64,000 bases of DNA, taken from positions 2,486,501 through 2,550,500 of the forward strand of contig CP081098.1 of assembly GCA_025141015.1 (NCBI GenBank). The letters are read 5' to 3'. The stretch comes from Rhodobacteraceae bacterium M382 (GTDB lineage: Bacteria; Pseudomonadota; Alphaproteobacteria; Rhodobacterales; Rhodobacteraceae). The number at the start of each line of letters is the position of its first letter. Position 1 is the first letter of the stretch. Under the pieces are notes generated by a model. The model worked only from the letters and a program-made list of their open reading frames with translations. It had not been told where the DNA came from and did not search any database. Shown in pieces: positions 40,070-45,051 of the stretch. Made by a program: the position numbers and the translations under genes.

Positions 40070-41062
40070 TCAGGCGTTGACGTCCACAACAACCCGCCCC
40101 TTGACCTGACCGTTCAGGATATCAGAGCCCAGTTTCGGCAGGTCCGACAAGGTTGCCGGGTGAACCATGGCTTCCAGCTTGTCCATCGGCAGATCTTTGG
40201 CAATGCGCTGCCAGGCCCGAACACGGTTGGCATAGGGCTGCATCACGGAATCGATGCCCAACAGGTTCACCCCGCGCAGCAGGAACGGAATCACCGTTGC
40301 AGGCAGCCCAGCACCGCCTGCCAAACCAACCGACGCCACCGAGGCCCCGTATTTCATCTGCCCCAGAACCCGCGCCAGCATCGGACCGCCCACGGCATCA
40401 ATACAACCAACCCAGTTTTCGCTTTCCAGCGGGCGCTTCACGGTCTCGTTGATCTCTTCGCGGGCCACGATCTGGGTTGCACCCAATGATTTCAGATACT
40501 CCGCAGTTTCAGGACGTCCTGTGACCCCGGCCACTTCGTAGCCCAGATTGGCCAGAATGGCGGTCGCCACGGACCCGACCCCCCCTGCAGCCCCTGTAAC
40601 CAGAACCGGTCCATGCCCAGGCTCCATCCCATGATCCTCCAGCGCCATAACGGCCAGCATCGCGGTAAACCCGGCTGTGCCGACCGCCATCGCCTGGCGG
40701 GTGGTCAACCCTTCGGGCAGTGGCACCAGCCAATCGGCCTTGACCCGCGCCTTTTGCGAATACCCACCCCAATGGGCCTCTCCCACGCGCCAGCCGGTCA
40801 GAACAACCTTGTCCCCCGGTGCGTATCTGTCATCCGAGCTGTCTTCGACGGTTCCAGCCAAATCAATGCCCGGAACATGGGGGTATTTTCGAACCAACCC
40901 GCCACCGGGACCGATGCACAGGCCGTCCTTGTAATTCACTGTCGAGTAATCAACAGACACAGTGATTTCGGCCTCGGGCAGCTGGTCCAGGTTCATCTGT
41001 TCGACTGCGGCGCTGGTTTTGCCGCTGTCTTCGTCCTTGTTCACAACAAGTGCATTGAACAT
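40070..41062 (-). CDS. acuI: Acryloyl-CoA reductase (AcuI/YhdH family MDR)
   Basis: 330 residues, zinc-free medium-chain reductase fold: VNYKDGLCIGPGGGLV and HVPGIDLAGTV in the catalytic domain, LVTGAAGGVGSVATAIL as NADPH motif, and LAGGAGLPATVIPFLLRGVNLLGIDS towards the C terminus, all close to AcuI/YhdH. It reduces toxic acryloyl-CoA from DMSP cleavage to propanoyl-CoA. In Ruegeria pomeroyi acuI is co-transcribed with dmdA (established knowledge), the same order as here. ATG 41062 is supported by AAAGGAC. A 116-base gap with palindromes separates it from dmdA. Confidence 0.92.
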   Translation of the reverse strand: MFNALVVNKDEDSGKTSAAVEQMNLDQLPEAEITVSVDYSTVNYKDGLCIGPGGGLVRKYPHVPGIDLAGTVEDSSDDRYAPGDKVVLTGWRVGEAHWGGYSQKARVKADWLVPLPEGLTTRQAMAVGTAGFTAMLAVMALEDHGMEPGHGPVLVTGAAGGVGSVATAILANLGYEVAGVTGRPETAEYLKSLGATQIVAREEINETVKRPLESENWVGCIDAVGGPMLARVLGQMKYGASVASVGLAGGAGLPATVIPFLLRGVNLLGIDSVMQPYANRVRAWQRIAKDLPMDKLEAMVHPATLSDLPKLGSDILNGQVKGRVVVDVNA

Positions 41063-41178: not shown

Positions 41179-42273
41179 TTAACGCCAGAACGATTTCTGC
41201 ACCGTGGCGCGGCGCATTCCGTTGCTGGTTTCAATTTCGGTCACAGTTCCCGCATCCCAATGCGTGCGATCAACCATGCCAATTGCGACCGTGGTCTGAA
41301 ACTCTGGCGACCAGATCGCCGAGGCCACCTGCCCGACCTGCTTGCCATCGGCAAACATAGGCCAGACATCGCTGCACATGCCGGTTTCGCCTTCGATCGC
41401 GACGGCGCGGATCATCCGGTCCGGCCCATCGCGCAATTGCGCCTCGAGCGCGGATTTGCCGATGTAGTTCTCGGGCGAATTGCAGAATTTGCCCAACCCG
41501 CATTCGATGGGCGTGTTTTCGCGGCGCATGTCCGACCCATAGCTCAGCAGACCGCTTTCCACGCGTTCGACCTGATTGGGGCAGCCAGCGCGCACATTCA
41601 GATCCTGTCCCGCATCAAATAGAGCATCCCACAGCGGCATTCCGTTTTCCGTGCCTTCGACGTAGATTTCAAAACCGCCCTGCTTGGACCAGCCCGACCG
41701 CGCGACCACAAATTCCTGCCCCTGAAAGGCCAGCCGTTTATAGCGGAAAAACCGGATATCGCGCACAGCATCACCGAACACCCGCGCCATCAGATCATCA
41801 GCCTTGGGGCCTTGGACGCCCAAAGGTGAAACATCGGGTTCGACAATGTCCACGTCAAACCCCTTGGCAATTGCGATCCCCAACGCGAATTGCAGCAGGT
41901 CACCATCAGCCAAGGACAGCCAATAGTGATCTGTCGCCAGCTTGATCGACACGGGGTCATTCAACATGCCGCCGTTTTGATCCACCGCAGGCACATAGTA
42001 ACATTGATCGTCCGCCATCCGGTCCATGTCACGCGGGCTGATCAGCTTCATCAGCCGCAACGCATCCGGTCCCTTGATGCTGACCTGTCGTTCACAGGAC
42101 ACATCCCAAACCTGCACATGCTGCTTCAAATGCGCAGCGTCGAATTCAACAGATTCGAATACCGTCGGCAGCAACATATGGTTGTAGACCGTGTAACCTT
42201 TGACTCCGGCTGCCTCTACACCTGCTGTAAACGGTGTTTTGCGCACCCGGCGCGATGGAAAGATTTCTGCCAT
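41179..42273 (-). CDS. dmdA: Dimethylsulfoniopropionate demethylase
   Basis: 364 residues, aminomethyltransferase (GcvT) fold, tetrahydrofolate-dependent. It transfers a methyl from DMSP to THF, giving 3-methylmercaptopropionate, the first step of the demethylation pathway. The body reads as roseobacter-type DmdA: VFESVEFDAAHLKQHVQVWDVSCERQVSIKGPDALRLMKLISPRDMDRM and the C-terminal CNSPENYIGKSALE. Companion acuI downstream and GntR regulator upstream match the known locus. GGGAGAAAC precedes ATG 42273. A glycine-cleavage T-protein is excluded by the context and the DmdA-like sequence; certainty needs alignment. Confidence 0.92.
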   Translation of the reverse strand: MAEIFPSRRVRKTPFTAGVEAAGVKGYTVYNHMLLPTVFESVEFDAAHLKQHVQVWDVSCERQVSIKGPDALRLMKLISPRDMDRMADDQCYYVPAVDQNGGMLNDPVSIKLATDHYWLSLADGDLLQFALGIAIAKGFDVDIVEPDVSPLGVQGPKADDLMARVFGDAVRDIRFFRYKRLAFQGQEFVVARSGWSKQGGFEIYVEGTENGMPLWDALFDAGQDLNVRAGCPNQVERVESGLLSYGSDMRRENTPIECGLGKFCNSPENYIGKSALEAQLRDGPDRMIRAVAIEGETGMCSDVWPMFADGKQVGQVASAIWSPEFQTTVAIGMVDRTHWDAGTVTEIETSNGMRRATVQKSFWR

Positions 42274-42418
42274 GTCAGTTTCTCCCAAAGGACATGTTCG
42301 CGGTGCCAGTCTGAACGGGCCAGACCGACCAATCCTGACCTGGTCGGATTGAATAACGCGGCGCAATGATGGTGTTCACGACACACTCCGGGTAAACAAA
42401 ACGGCGACTCAGGTAATG

Positions 42419-42448
42419 TTTTAAATGTCAGACTTTTAAATGTCAGAC
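42419..42448. repeat. Perfect tandem repeat 2 x 15 bp in the dmdA/gntR intergenic region
   Basis: TTTTAAATGTCAGAC occurs twice with no spacer (42419-42433 and 42434-42448), between the divergent starts of dmdA (42273) and the GntR regulator (42515). The second copy ends about 20 bases before TTATAT (42468-42473), a candidate -10 of the regulator gene, so a bound protein would cover its -35 region. It is a good candidate operator, probably for the GntR protein, but is a direct, not inverted, repeat. Confidence 0.75.
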
Positions 42449-42514
42449 AAATGAAAATTGCACAACCTTATATGCTCGGCGTAGGTTCGACGGTTCACAG
42501 GACAGAGAAAACGC

Positions 42515-43273
42515 ATGAAGATTGATCCAAACAGCACGGCAGATCTGTCGGTGCAGATCGCCCAGGCCATCAAATCCGCGATCATCAATGGTGAATTGAT
42601 CGTTGATGAACGTCTCCCGTCCGAGGCAGAGTTGGTTGATCATTTCCAAGTGTCCCGCCCCACGGTCCGCGAGGCGTTGAAACGGCTCGCCGCCCAATCG
42701 CTGATCCGCACGCAACGCGGCGCGTCAGGTGGTGCCTTTGTCAACCGGCTAAGCTTTGAGGATGCCTATCCTCAGCAGATTACCACCTCGACCCTGTTGC
42801 TGTCGATGAACGAGGTCAGCTTTGACACCGCCTGCGAGGCCAGGTTTGCATTGGAGCGCGCCTGTGCGCCACTGTCGTCGCGACGCCGCACACCGGATCA
42901 TCTGGCCACCATGCGGGCCGAAATCATGCGCCAAAGCCAACCCGGGCTGACGGATGTGGCCTTTTGCGCCTCAGACGTCGCCTTTCACCGAGCGCTGGTG
43001 GACGGGGCCGGCAACCCGGTGCTGTCCTATCAATTGGCCGGTGCCGTCGAAGCGATGCAGCCGTTGATGAACATGATCACCTTTACCGCACGGGACCGCG
43101 AGCAAATCGTGGCTTTGCACACCCAGATTGCCGATGCGATGACGGATCAGAATGGCGATCTGGTTGATCAGTGCCTCGAAGAGCTGGCCCATTATACCAC
43201 GCAACTGGCCCATGATCTGATGGCAGCGCGTGATGCGGCCCGACTGACGACAGAACAGAAAGACCCTGCATGA
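42515..43273 (+). CDS. GntR family regulator, FadR subfamily (DMSP locus)
   Basis: 252 residues. The winged helix-turn-helix (about 10-75) shows VQIAQAIKSAIINGEL, RLPSEAELVDHFQVSRPTVREALKRLAAQSLI; the C-terminal FCD ligand domain (about 95-235) has metal-site His residues in DVAFHRALVDGAGN and HTQIADAM. It is divergent from dmdA-acuI, the arrangement reported near dmdA in other roseobacters, and probably represses it until a DMSP-derived acid or acryloyl-CoA is present (inference). Its stop overlaps the ectC-like gene by four bases. Confidence 0.9.
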   Translation: MKIDPNSTADLSVQIAQAIKSAIINGELIVDERLPSEAELVDHFQVSRPTVREALKRLAAQSLIRTQRGASGGAFVNRLSFEDAYPQQITTSTLLLSMNEVSFDTACEARFALERACAPLSSRRRTPDHLATMRAEIMRQSQPGLTDVAFCASDVAFHRALVDGAGNPVLSYQLAGAVEAMQPLMNMITFTARDREQIVALHTQIADAMTDQNGDLVDQCLEELAHYTTQLAHDLMAARDAARLTTEQKDPA

Positions 43274-43656
43274 TCATTCGCACATTGGAAGCCGTCGAAA
43301 AAACCGACCGTTTCGTTGATTGGGGCAATGGCACCAGCCATCGGTTTCTAGTCTGCGAAGACGGTATGGGATTTACCATGTGCCACACCATCGTAAGGGC
43401 CGGAACAACCACGCGGTTGAAATACGAAAACCATCTGGAGGCCTGTTATTGCATCGCGGGATCCGGCACCGTGACCGGCGCAGACGGGCAGGATCATGTC
43501 ATCAAGCCCGGTACAATGTATGCGTTGGATCAACATGATGATCACACTCTAACTGCATATTCTAAAACAGATTTAGTTCTGGTGAGCGTGTTCAATCCGC
43601 CGCTGAGCGGACAGGAAACACATGACCCAACGGGCGCTAGGCCATCCGGTTACTAG
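43270..43656 (+). CDS. ectC: Orphan ectoine synthase-like cupin (EctC homologue)
   Basis: 128 residues, the length of EctC. The sequence follows the family along its length: TLEAVEKTDRFVD, NHLEACYCIAGSGTV, KPGTMYALDQHDDHTL and SVFNPPLSGQETHD. The iron ligands of characterised EctC, Glu57, Tyr84 and His92, are all present. Two substrate-pocket residues differ: Gly21 in place of the conserved Trp21, and Ser106 where EctC has Cys105. There is no ectA, ectB or ectD here, so it is an orphan. It overlaps the GntR regulator by four bases and is therefore co-translated with it. It may make ectoine from imported precursor or have drifted to another osmolyte. Confidence 0.88.
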   Translation: MIIRTLEAVEKTDRFVDWGNGTSHRFLVCEDGMGFTMCHTIVRAGTTTRLKYENHLEACYCIAGSGTVTGADGQDHVIKPGTMYALDQHDDHTLTAYSKTDLVLVSVFNPPLSGQETHDPTGARPSGY

Positions 43657-43702
43657 CCGTTCAAATCCCCCCAGATTCCCGCGTAGCCCAGGCCAAACCA
43701 TC

Positions 43703-43731
43703 TTGCAAACCGGTCCAGCGAAGCCTATGTA
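43703..43731 (+). promoter_or_regulatory. Candidate promoter of ssrA
   Basis: TTGCAA (43703-43708), a 17-base spacer and TATGTA (43726-43731), with TATAAC just beyond (43730-43735). It would start transcription near 43740, at the 5' edge of the tmRNA acceptor domain. Confidence 0.4.
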
Positions 43732-43739
43732 TAACCTGT

Positions 43740-44064
43740 TCCCTCGGGGACTATGGACATAAATGCGCTCGTAATAAACGGATCGGACCCGGGGGCGGTA
43801 CCCGGCGACTCCACCAAACATGCTTCATTTGGGCATCATGGGGTCGAAATAGGATCGACGGACGTCTAAAGGGGTTAGCTTTGTCTCGGCTGTCTGCCAC
43901 CGTTATCGGCGAAAACTGTACAATTGCAAATGACAATCGTGCTCCGGCAATGGCAGTAGCAGCGTAAGCTGTTAATGTCGCCGAAACTTAACTCCTTGGG
44001 TTTAGCGACCTAAGGCGGGGTTCGCAGGTACCTGGCAACAGAAACCTGCACTAATCCCCTGCCT
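43740..44064 (+). ncRNA. ssrA: Transfer-messenger RNA, circularly permuted two-piece form
   Basis: The acceptor segment comes first: it ends CGACTCC-A-CCA (43806-43816). After a 23-base intervening segment (43817-43839), to be removed, the coding piece opens GGGGTCG (43840-43846), which pairs with CGACTCC (one G-U) as the tRNA-like acceptor stem. The resume codon GCA is at 43926, and the tag reads ANDNRAPAMAVAA with stop TAA at 43965-43967, ending in the ClpXP-recognised AVAA-type tail. Pseudoknot-like stems follow to about 44064. Both outer ends are estimates. Permuted two-piece tmRNA is the rule in alphaproteobacteria. Confidence 0.93.
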
Positions 44065-44244
44065 TGATTGAATTTCTGTGAAGATTGCAAGAAGCCTGTG
44101 TGTCCGGGCTCCGGTTGACTTGACCCATCCTGCTGCTTCGCGCTAACACTTGGGACATGGGGTCAGCGTCCACCCCGTGAGGCTCAGGCCCAAGGTCGCA
44201 TCCAATGTAAACCTGTCAGAACCGATGCCAGGAAAGGATGCACC

Positions 44245-45051
44245 ATGCCCGGCTTTACCGAAATTTCCCCCAACAACCTTATGCGATTGATTGGCGGCCC
44301 GACCACGCCGTTGATTGTGGACGTCTCGATTGACGATGATTTTGACGCAGACCCGCATCTGGTTCCAACGGCCTTTCGTCATCCGCACTCCGACCTGGAC
44401 AGATTGACCACCTTGGCACAGAACCGATCCGTGGTCGTCATTTGTCAAAAGGGATTGAAACTGTCCCATGGTGTGGCTGCCACCCTGCGGGCCCGCGGCA
44501 TTGCTGCACAGATATTGGAAGGCGGGAATTATGGCTGGCGCGATGCCGGGCTGCCGCGCGTGCCGGCCCAGGCCATGCCCGGCCTGGCACAGGGGAACAC
44601 CCGGTGGGTCACCCGTCACCGCCCCAAGATCGACCGCATCGCCTGTCCCTGGCTGATCCGCCGTTTTGTCGATCCACAGGCAGAATTCCTGTTTGTCCCC
44701 CCCTCGGCAGTGGAAGCCGTGGCCGAACGGTTCAACGCCACACCATTTGACATCGAAGGCGGAGAGTGGAGCCACAACGGTCCTCTGTGCACCTTTGACA
44801 CCATGATCGACCGGTTCGGGTTGGCGCATGAGCCCTTGAACCGGGTGGCAGTGGTTGTGCGCGCCGCCGATACGGACACGCCCGATCTGTCTCCACAGGC
44901 CGCCGGGTTGTTGGCCATATCTGTTGGATTGTCTCGTCTGCACAAGGATGACACAACACAGCTGAACGCAGGACTCGCGATCTATGACGCGCTCTATCGC
45001 TGGGCGCGGGATGGGTTTGACGAAGGACATGATTGGCCCGCAAAAAAATGA
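44245..45051 (+). CDS. chrB: Chromate resistance protein ChrB-type with N-terminal rhodanese domain
   Basis: 268 residues in two parts: a rhodanese-like domain (about 1-110) with the active-site-position Cys in VVVICQKGLKLSHG, and a ChrB C-terminal domain (about 125-260) with WVTRHRPKIDRIACPWLIRRFVDPQAEFLFV. ChrB proteins sense chromate or regulate chrA. The rhodanese fusion is a known variant. Its stop overlaps chrA by four bases (ATGA), so the two are co-translated. The start ATG at 44245 has AAAGGAT upstream. Chromate reduction by the rhodanese Cys is only a possibility. Confidence 0.88.
   Translation: MPGFTEISPNNLMRLIGGPTTPLIVDVSIDDDFDADPHLVPTAFRHPHSDLDRLTTLAQNRSVVVICQKGLKLSHGVAATLRARGIAAQILEGGNYGWRDAGLPRVPAQAMPGLAQGNTRWVTRHRPKIDRIACPWLIRRFVDPQAEFLFVPPSAVEAVAERFNATPFDIEGGEWSHNGPLCTFDTMIDRFGLAHEPLNRVAVVVRAADTDTPDLSPQAAGLLAISVGLSRLHKDDTTQLNAGLAIYDALYRWARDGFDEGHDWPAKK

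Follow-up and report, generated by a model that had tools for sequence, protein, structure and literature searches.

A solitary EctC-type cupin gene behind the GntR regulator beside dmdA in a few roseobacters

By computation we place a cupin of the EctC family and fold, with the metal ligands of ectoine synthase kept and a pocket tryptophan shifted, in a fixed gene order directly behind a GntR/FCD regulator gene that is preceded by an operator-like site and is divergent from the DMSP demethylase gene dmdA (Table 1). The reading that we prefer, and to which we give about an even chance, is that this solitary cupin of the WGNG class, encoded in the regulator's operon, carries out EctC-type chemistry on an amide other than self-made N-gamma-acetyl-diaminobutyrate. 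The window analyzed is a stretch of 64,000 nucleotides from Rhodobacteraceae bacterium M382 (GenBank assembly GCA_025141015.1, contig CP081098.1, positions 2,486,501 to 2,550,500 of the forward strand).

The function of solitary EctCs is posed as an open question in the accessible text of two reports (PMC5924519, PMC6344544). In a literature search that had most subscription journals outside its reach, we found no ectC-type gene tied to dmdA or to its GntR, nor any report that names this GntR as controlling dmdA; papers in which dmdA occurs along with GntR or ectC deal with other subjects, as far as their accessible text goes. At this locus ectC has a regulator and a predicted operator beside it, and DMSP suggests itself as the growth condition, so that expression and knock-out tests are straightforward in marine laboratory strains; the operator-like site, for its part, offers a way into the question of how roseobacters may switch DMSP demethylation.

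Table 1. Features of the dmdA-GntR-ectC locus in window coordinates
Feature	Position	Strand	Basis
acuI, acrylyl-CoA reductase family, downstream of dmdA	40070..41062	-	TIGR02823, 454.9 bits (cut-off 297)
dmdA, DMSP demethylase, divergent from GntR	41179..42273	-	NCBIfam NF009133, 607.9 bits (cut-off 410)
Tandem operator-like sites AATGTCAGACTTT (42424-42436) and AATGTCAGACAAA (42439-42451), dmdA-GntR gap	42424..42451	.	Pattern scan
GntR/FCD (FadR-type) regulator	42515..43273	+	Pfam GntR 1.7e-17, FCD 1.2e-18
Solitary EctC-type cupin gene, WGNG class, 128 aa	43270..43656	+	Pfam, NCBIfam, tree, alignment
tmRNA gene (ssrA), directly downstream of ectC; neighbor outside the module	43721..44058	+	ARAGORN

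An EctC-type gene coupled to the regulator gene

That this region encodes an orphan EctC-like cupin had been proposed from the sequence alone, and the proposal is borne out. The frame is open and intact, and its product exceeds the curated cut-offs of both Pfam PF06339 (Ectoine_synth; E 6.1e-43, 146.6 bits, cut-off 27) and NCBIfam NF009806 (ectoine synthase; 160.8 bits, cut-off 128), which, together with the kept iron ligands, makes it a member of the EctC-type family. Ectoine synthases are also its nearest solved proteins by sequence (E 2e-30). An AlphaFold model built from 12 sequences (mean pLDDT 85.7, pTM 0.79, with lower confidence in the final 18 residues) has its best PDB match in the EctC of S. 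alaskensis (5bxx; Z 18.3, rmsd 1.4, 112 aligned) and its second in that of P. lautus (5onn; Z 17.6, rmsd 2.0, 120 aligned), two enzymes with the same fold and 44-45% identity to the cupin over the aligned part. An opposite-strand gene spanning the whole frame is ruled out by stops in reverse frame 1.

The original prediction also held that the cupin gene overlaps a GntR gene facing dmdA-acuI; this is confirmed by the NCBIfam matches (the acuI product scores 428.2 bits against the AcuI equivalog, just under its cut-off of 440) and by a four-base overlap (ATGA) between the GntR stop and the ectC start. Its start within the GntR stop codon should put ectC under the GntR promoter. A shared GntR transcript from an operator-bearing promoter is what the overlap and the operator-like site described below would fit, both being observations on sequence; a scan of positions 42250-44250 found no sigma-70-type promoter. 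With a GC content of 0.522 and a GC3 of 0.566, ectC lies below its eight neighbors (0.54-0.605 and 0.66-0.70) and may for that reason be a recent arrival in the host genome.

Among the ten pairs of ectC genes in the dmdA-linked clade, omega is 0.05 in the sole unsaturated pair and 0.07-0.15 in seven saturated ones (two could not be computed). With dS saturated in seven of the eight computable pairs, these values read as purifying selection on ectC in its own clade, and together with the intact frame they rule out a pseudogene.

A pocket shared with other orphan EctCs

The alignment comprises 52 distinct EctC-type proteins taken from the loci, and the two solved EctCs. Glu-57, Tyr-84, His-92, Arg-25, Thr-40, Tyr-52 and the Phe at 106 are kept in all 52 rows, and the window cupin keeps Ser-23 in addition; the seven residues are likewise common to it and the P. 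lautus and S. alaskensis enzymes, so that the predicted retention of the iron ligands Glu57, Tyr84 and His92 stands. Unlike those two enzymes, the window cupin has Gly at 21 with a Trp at 18, Cys at 38 and Ser at 104, and thus none of the Trp-21, Asn-38 and Cys-104 of a bona fide ectoine synthase, although position 38 is His even in the S. alaskensis enzyme. The change of Asn/His-38 to Cys is additional to those first noticed. As to these, Trp-21 is indeed replaced by Gly, but a Trp is present at 18; and the Ser proposed in place of a Cys at about 105 is real, being residue 106 of the protein and aligned with Cys-104 of P. lautus EctC, but it is the mark of a class.

Of the 52 rows, 34 have an aromatic residue at position 21 (32 Trp, 2 Phe) together with His at 38 and Cys at 104. 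The other 18, the window included, have Gly at 21 and, without exception, Trp at 18 within a WG(N/S)G motif (DWGNG in the window). His-24, Cys-38 and Ser-104 occur together in 11 of these 18 (the window, its four dmdA-linked relatives, L094 and five plasmid copies), whereas the remaining seven have Arg, Thr and Cys there. Because the changes at 38 and 104 are common to 11 WGNG rows, they mark a class and not this copy, and a pocket unique to the window is ruled out by them and by the Trp shift in 18 of 52 rows. As far as the accessible text of PMC6344544 goes, orphan EctCs retain the Trp, in some cases moved by two residues (three in the window, by ungapped numbering), and frequently have Ser at 104. 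Since the shifted Trp and the Ser for Cys-104 are thus published orphan features, the altered pocket, first put forward as novel, is real but, as judged from the alignment, a hallmark of a published class.

In the portions available of the work on P. lautus EctC, Asn-38 contacts the substrate carboxylate, W21A leaves 9.7% of activity, C104A causes essentially no loss and C104S leaves about 60% (PMC6344544, Czech et al. 2019). That the core is kept while the rim is changed at 21, 38 and 104 speaks for EctC-like chemistry on another substrate or a wider range of substrates. A Phe in place of the Trp at position 21 was seen in the EctC-type proteins L044/L102 (G248, same genus) and L015; G248, a draft genome that is 93% complete, has no ectA match.

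Ectoine genes in host and carrier genomes

The host genome (5.17 Mb in four contigs, 100% complete) contains one ectC, no match to ectA anywhere and no ectB over the cut-off (best match 238.7 bits, cut-off 552.2). The neighbors of ectC that were scanned are GntR, dmdA, acuI, a PLP enzyme and a rhodanese-like protein; the predicted lack of ectA and ectB nearby therefore extends to the whole genome. Neither an ectA match nor an ectB over the cut-off occurs in any of the five dmdA-linked carrier genomes (the host and four others), which are those among the 18 WGNG rows that the genome-wide search covers. In the congener G200, ectA and ectB (both over the cut-off) and a canonical ectC adjoin on one contig.

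The window ectC is thus not encoded with ectA and ectB, as a bona fide ectoine synthase is, and in this it differs from the P. lautus and S. alaskensis genes. The gene lies apart from any ect cluster, its genome has no ectA match and no ectB over the cut-off, and its product groups by sequence with the shifted-Trp EctCs found outside ect clusters, which places it in the solitary (orphan) class. The orphans described in the accessible text of two studies (groups 2 and 3 of Czech et al. 2018, PMC5924519; 145 orphans in PMC6344544) are likewise without ectAB and keep the ligands; unlike the class as described there, the window gene is coupled to a GntR beside dmdA.

Distribution of the arrangement

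A pattern-based scan of the genome_contigs collection with the window protein gave 11 loci, and four close ectC relatives (70-73% identity) were found in Roseobacter sp. SK209-2-6, two Leisingera and one Shimia. All four have the same order: acuI-dmdA on one side, GntR-ectC on the other, then the tmRNA gene, a gene that we take to be SspB-like, and fumC. The GntR-ectC stop/start overlap is present in four of the five carriers, and in Shimia there is a gap of 13 bases. A sample of 394 genomes gave seven matches at E 1e-33, two of which, besides the window, exceed 60% identity; one of the two (G345) is the SK209-2-6 genome again, with identical gene order.

The arrangement is rare. An ectC of at least 60% identity occurs in one of 248 family genomes, the host itself, and is lacking in 247, and carriers number one of three in the host genus and one of 12 in the genus of another carrier. 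The regulator (E <= 1e-60) was detected in 97 of the 248, host included. We examined 40 other GntR loci, picked from the 51 best non-own matches among the 97 genomes with a match: dmdA is present in 36, acuI in 39 and ectC in none, with some contigs ending early. These roseobacters have the same regulator, the same operator-like site and mostly a divergent dmdA-acuI, and differ from the window in having no ectC behind the GntR. As GntR accompanies dmdA in 36 of 40 loci and always without ectC, the DMSP locus does not need ectC: judged by gene order, the link between regulator and dmdA is broad and ectC an optional addition, and an obligate partnership of ectC with dmdA is ruled out by the 40 loci. 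Conservation of the pairing with dmdA holds in five genomes but fails in the 40 other GntR loci and the 247 family genomes.

The neighborhood from the PLP gene to fumC is largely conserved whether ectC is present or not. A 64% ectC copy (L097) lies on a 9.9-kb contig without GntR, dmdA or an AT-flanked operator-like site; it is near a 79% relative of the same PLP gene, and TRAP transporter genes follow the copy.

Trees, exchange and plasmid relatives

In the ectC tree, which is rooted by midpoint only, the five dmdA-linked copies form one clade (99/93). This joins (99/96) a sister clade (97/91) of plasmid copies, from Agrobacterium, Sinorhizobium, Rhizobium and Paraburkholderia, and one family genome (L094), and both clades fall within the 18-row WGNG branch (100/98). 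The gene was probably acquired by lateral transfer. The GntR tree requires two changes, with the window, SK209-2-6 and Leisingera together (94/91) and Shimia elsewhere, in a topology that the bootstrap has not settled. Window dmdA is 81% identical to that of L053, 79% to that of L033 and 60% to that of the congener L054, with corresponding values of 84, 84 and 83% for GntR and 88, 90 and 90% for acuI; for the PLP, chrA-like, SspB-like and fumC proteins the congener, and not L033, is the nearer of the two. These identities hint, and do no more than hint, that a dmdA-GntR-ectC segment has been exchanged as a block. Separately, the two Leisingera loci (L032 and L033) have nearly identical ectC genes (dN 0.007), while the dmdA alleles that fill the same position differ, being 67 and 79% identical to window dmdA, which suggests that dmdA alleles have been exchanged.

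Plasmid neighborhoods were examined in eight of the 121 plasmid records with EctC matches. The five closest copies of those examined adjoin ATP-grasp ligases, an AMP ligase, MFS transporters or NRPS, and the ATP-grasp ligases carry the L-amino-acid ligase domain LAL_C2 in two cases and are D-Ala-ligase-like genes in one. This company points to a tailoring cyclase. The rhizobial, Agrobacterium and Paraburkholderia plasmid EctCs (L045-L049) are the nearest named relatives of the window cupin outside the dmdA-linked group (55-61%) and resemble it in the WG(N/S)G...SHR motif, Cys-38 and Ser-104; unlike the window, they have no GntR annotated alongside (plasmid gene tables being incomplete) and no operator-like site in the stretches examined. 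More distant WGNG copies, from Streptomyces and Aliiroseovarius, occur with ketosynthase, carrier protein, acyl-CoA dehydrogenase and trp-like genes, and a cyanobacterial one with a desaturase, a GNAT and a tryptophan halogenase. The P. syringae solitary EctC is absent from the 11 genome_contigs loci and from the 60 of 121 plasmid matches listed. Solitary WGNG EctCs (L045-L052 and L002-L004, the neighbors of the latter three judged by eye) are seen repeatedly in plasmid and chromosomal clusters, and those in ligase, NRPS or ketosynthase clusters are possibly unexplored tailoring cyclases.

An operator-like site before the regulator

Two operator-like sites stand in tandem in the window, 15 bp apart, with TTAAATGTCAGAC... 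preceding the regulator; the window scan gave three site matches, one site being counted on both strands, against a shuffle mean of 0.00. We surveyed the 260 bases before GntR for the pattern GTCnGAC at 45 loci (the window, L031-L034 and L053-L092). Sites occur at 42, two or more at 37, one at five and none at three, and in 30 of the 37 the last two are 15 bp apart. There are 80 sites in all against a mean of 3.2 in mononucleotide shuffles, although the loci are related and do not amount to 45 independent tests; the distance to the GntR start ranges from 9 to 98 bases. The near-invariant tandem form before dmdA-linked GntR genes is TTAAATGTCAGACTTTTAAATGTC(A/T)GACAAAT.

Apart from this locus, the host genome has exact copies of AWTGTCWGACWWWT at a single further place; G200 and Leisingera G251 have them only at the dmdA-GntR locus, and Shimia has them at that locus and before genes for an acyl-CoA dehydrogenase and an acyl-CoA synthetase (L107, L114); a reversed-pattern control gave 0, 1, 1 and 0 matches in the host, G200, G251 and Shimia. 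With up to two mismatches, the 15-base form has 38 matches in the host (control 3) and 11 in G251 (control 4), palindromes being counted twice. Allowing a single mismatch adds three places in the host genome, of which L128 is situated about 80 bp upstream of a 77% ortholog of the Shimia synthetase, and the other two show no match to the Shimia synthetase or dehydrogenase. In DMSP demethylation, the DmdB and DmdC steps are carried out by enzymes of these classes, acyl-CoA synthetases and dehydrogenases; compared with the PDB, the two Shimia enzymes have no DmdB or DmdC match at E 1e-60. The sites before GntR, the Shimia enzymes and the host synthetase ortholog form a candidate regulon.

The tandem sites TGTCAGAC are the predicted binding site of GntR and a candidate cis element for switching DMSP demethylation; GntR would bind them and control dmdA. 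The conserved operator-like site before the regulator hardly occurs outside this locus in the host genome, and ectC should therefore be expressed together with the DMSP switch.

What the solitary cupin may do

On our preferred reading, ectC came to sit behind the GntR/FCD regulator of dmdA-acuI in the ancestry of a few roseobacters, and as the second gene of the GntR operon it would be produced when the DMSP switch is on. The cupin would catalyze an intramolecular loss (or addition) of water, by which a cyclic amidine is made from, or opened to, an amide carbonyl and an amine. Its substrate would be a small amide different from N-gamma-acetyl-diaminobutyrate of the cell's own making, since the host is unable to produce the latter through the EctAB route. 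Ectoine synthase has some latitude of this kind, in that it also cyclizes glutamine, with very low efficiency, and hydrolyzes some cyclic amidines (PMC5924519, accessible text). We infer the binding of Fe as the metal content, the reaction, its substrate, autoregulation by GntR and co-expression with DMSP. A bolder version, which we hold to be quite improbable, makes the cupin part of a DMSP-switched GntR-EctC module and the maker of a cyclic amidine (a new osmolyte, signal or regulator ligand) from an amino-acid amide. If true, it would mean that cells trading DMSP sulfur for carbon also shift their small-solute pool, and it would be the first role assigned to a solitary EctC outside ectoine synthesis in the literature searched.

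The conserved PLP-gene-to-fumC neighborhood, with or without ectC, and the lack of a dmdA link in the relatives examined elsewhere would both be expected if ectC had landed behind GntR by chance and been inherited with the locus, its job unrelated to DMSP. As the five dmdA-linked copies form one clade, the GntR-ectC junction may indeed have arisen only once. Yet the GntR tree, unsettled as its bootstrap is, sets Shimia apart while the position is the same, the stop/start overlap is kept over copies that are 71-73% identical to the window's, and ectC is under purifying selection; we consider such a passenger unlikely. Rather unlikely as well is a functional ectoine synthase that salvages N-gamma-ADABA from algae, other bacteria or ectoine breakdown. 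The metal ligands and most substrate contacts are kept, and the ectoine hydrolase EutD is over its cut-off of 613 bits in three of the four other carriers, with the host at 602.9 and Shimia at 497; the solitary ectC of P. syringae, moreover, which is the one such gene whose physiology is tested in the accessible text, gave ectoine in an ectC mutant of Halomonas elongata (PMC5924519). According to the accessible text of the same report, however, P. syringae fed N-gamma-ADABA formed no ectoine, in data that its authors call not conclusive. The substrate-contacting Asn-38 is Cys in the window cupin, W21A left 9.7% activity in the P. lautus enzyme as given in the available portion of PMC6344544, though Trp-18 may compensate, and the host is without an ectA match and an ectB over the cut-off.

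Two further readings tie the cupin to the locus more closely. FCD-type GntRs bind small carboxylates, and the stop/start coupling of the two genes and the nearly local operator-like site would suit a cupin that makes, removes or buffers a small molecule sensed by GntR; but most relatives have the GntR without ectC, we know of no EctC role as partner of a regulator, and we regard this as very improbable. The original prediction favored a cupin that handles a DMSP-derived acid. Such a protein, acting on that acid or on DMSP itself, for example as a cupin-type DMSP lyase, would explain its place in the same locus as dmdA, and the DMSP lyase DddK comes next among the fold matches after EctC and one isomerase (Z 14.4, 18% identity). 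A Z of about 14, however, is nothing unusual for the small cupins listed there, a sequence comparison gives no match to DddK at E up to 1, and the ligand residues are those of EctC, whereas DddK has a His-x-His/Glu/His set; a cupin DMSP lyase, for which there is likeness of fold only, is set aside as very improbable. With its nearest named relatives sitting among amino-acid and peptide natural-product genes, a cupin acting on DMSP or its acids is scarcely credible, and a role in DMSP chemistry itself is unsupported. We return to a cupin with EctC-type chemistry on another amide as the reading preferred.

Other genes at dmdA-GntR loci

At L031 (7709-9144) a DUF1326 gene and a gene of the PpoB2 'copper chaperone' family lie between dmdA and GntR, and in 33 of the 36 ectC-less loci with dmdA the dmdA-GntR gap is of similar size, 1.5-2.2 kb from start to start; the window and both Leisingera loci have no room there for such genes. 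The DUF1326/PpoB2 genes are possibly tied to copper-dependent handling of methanethiol.
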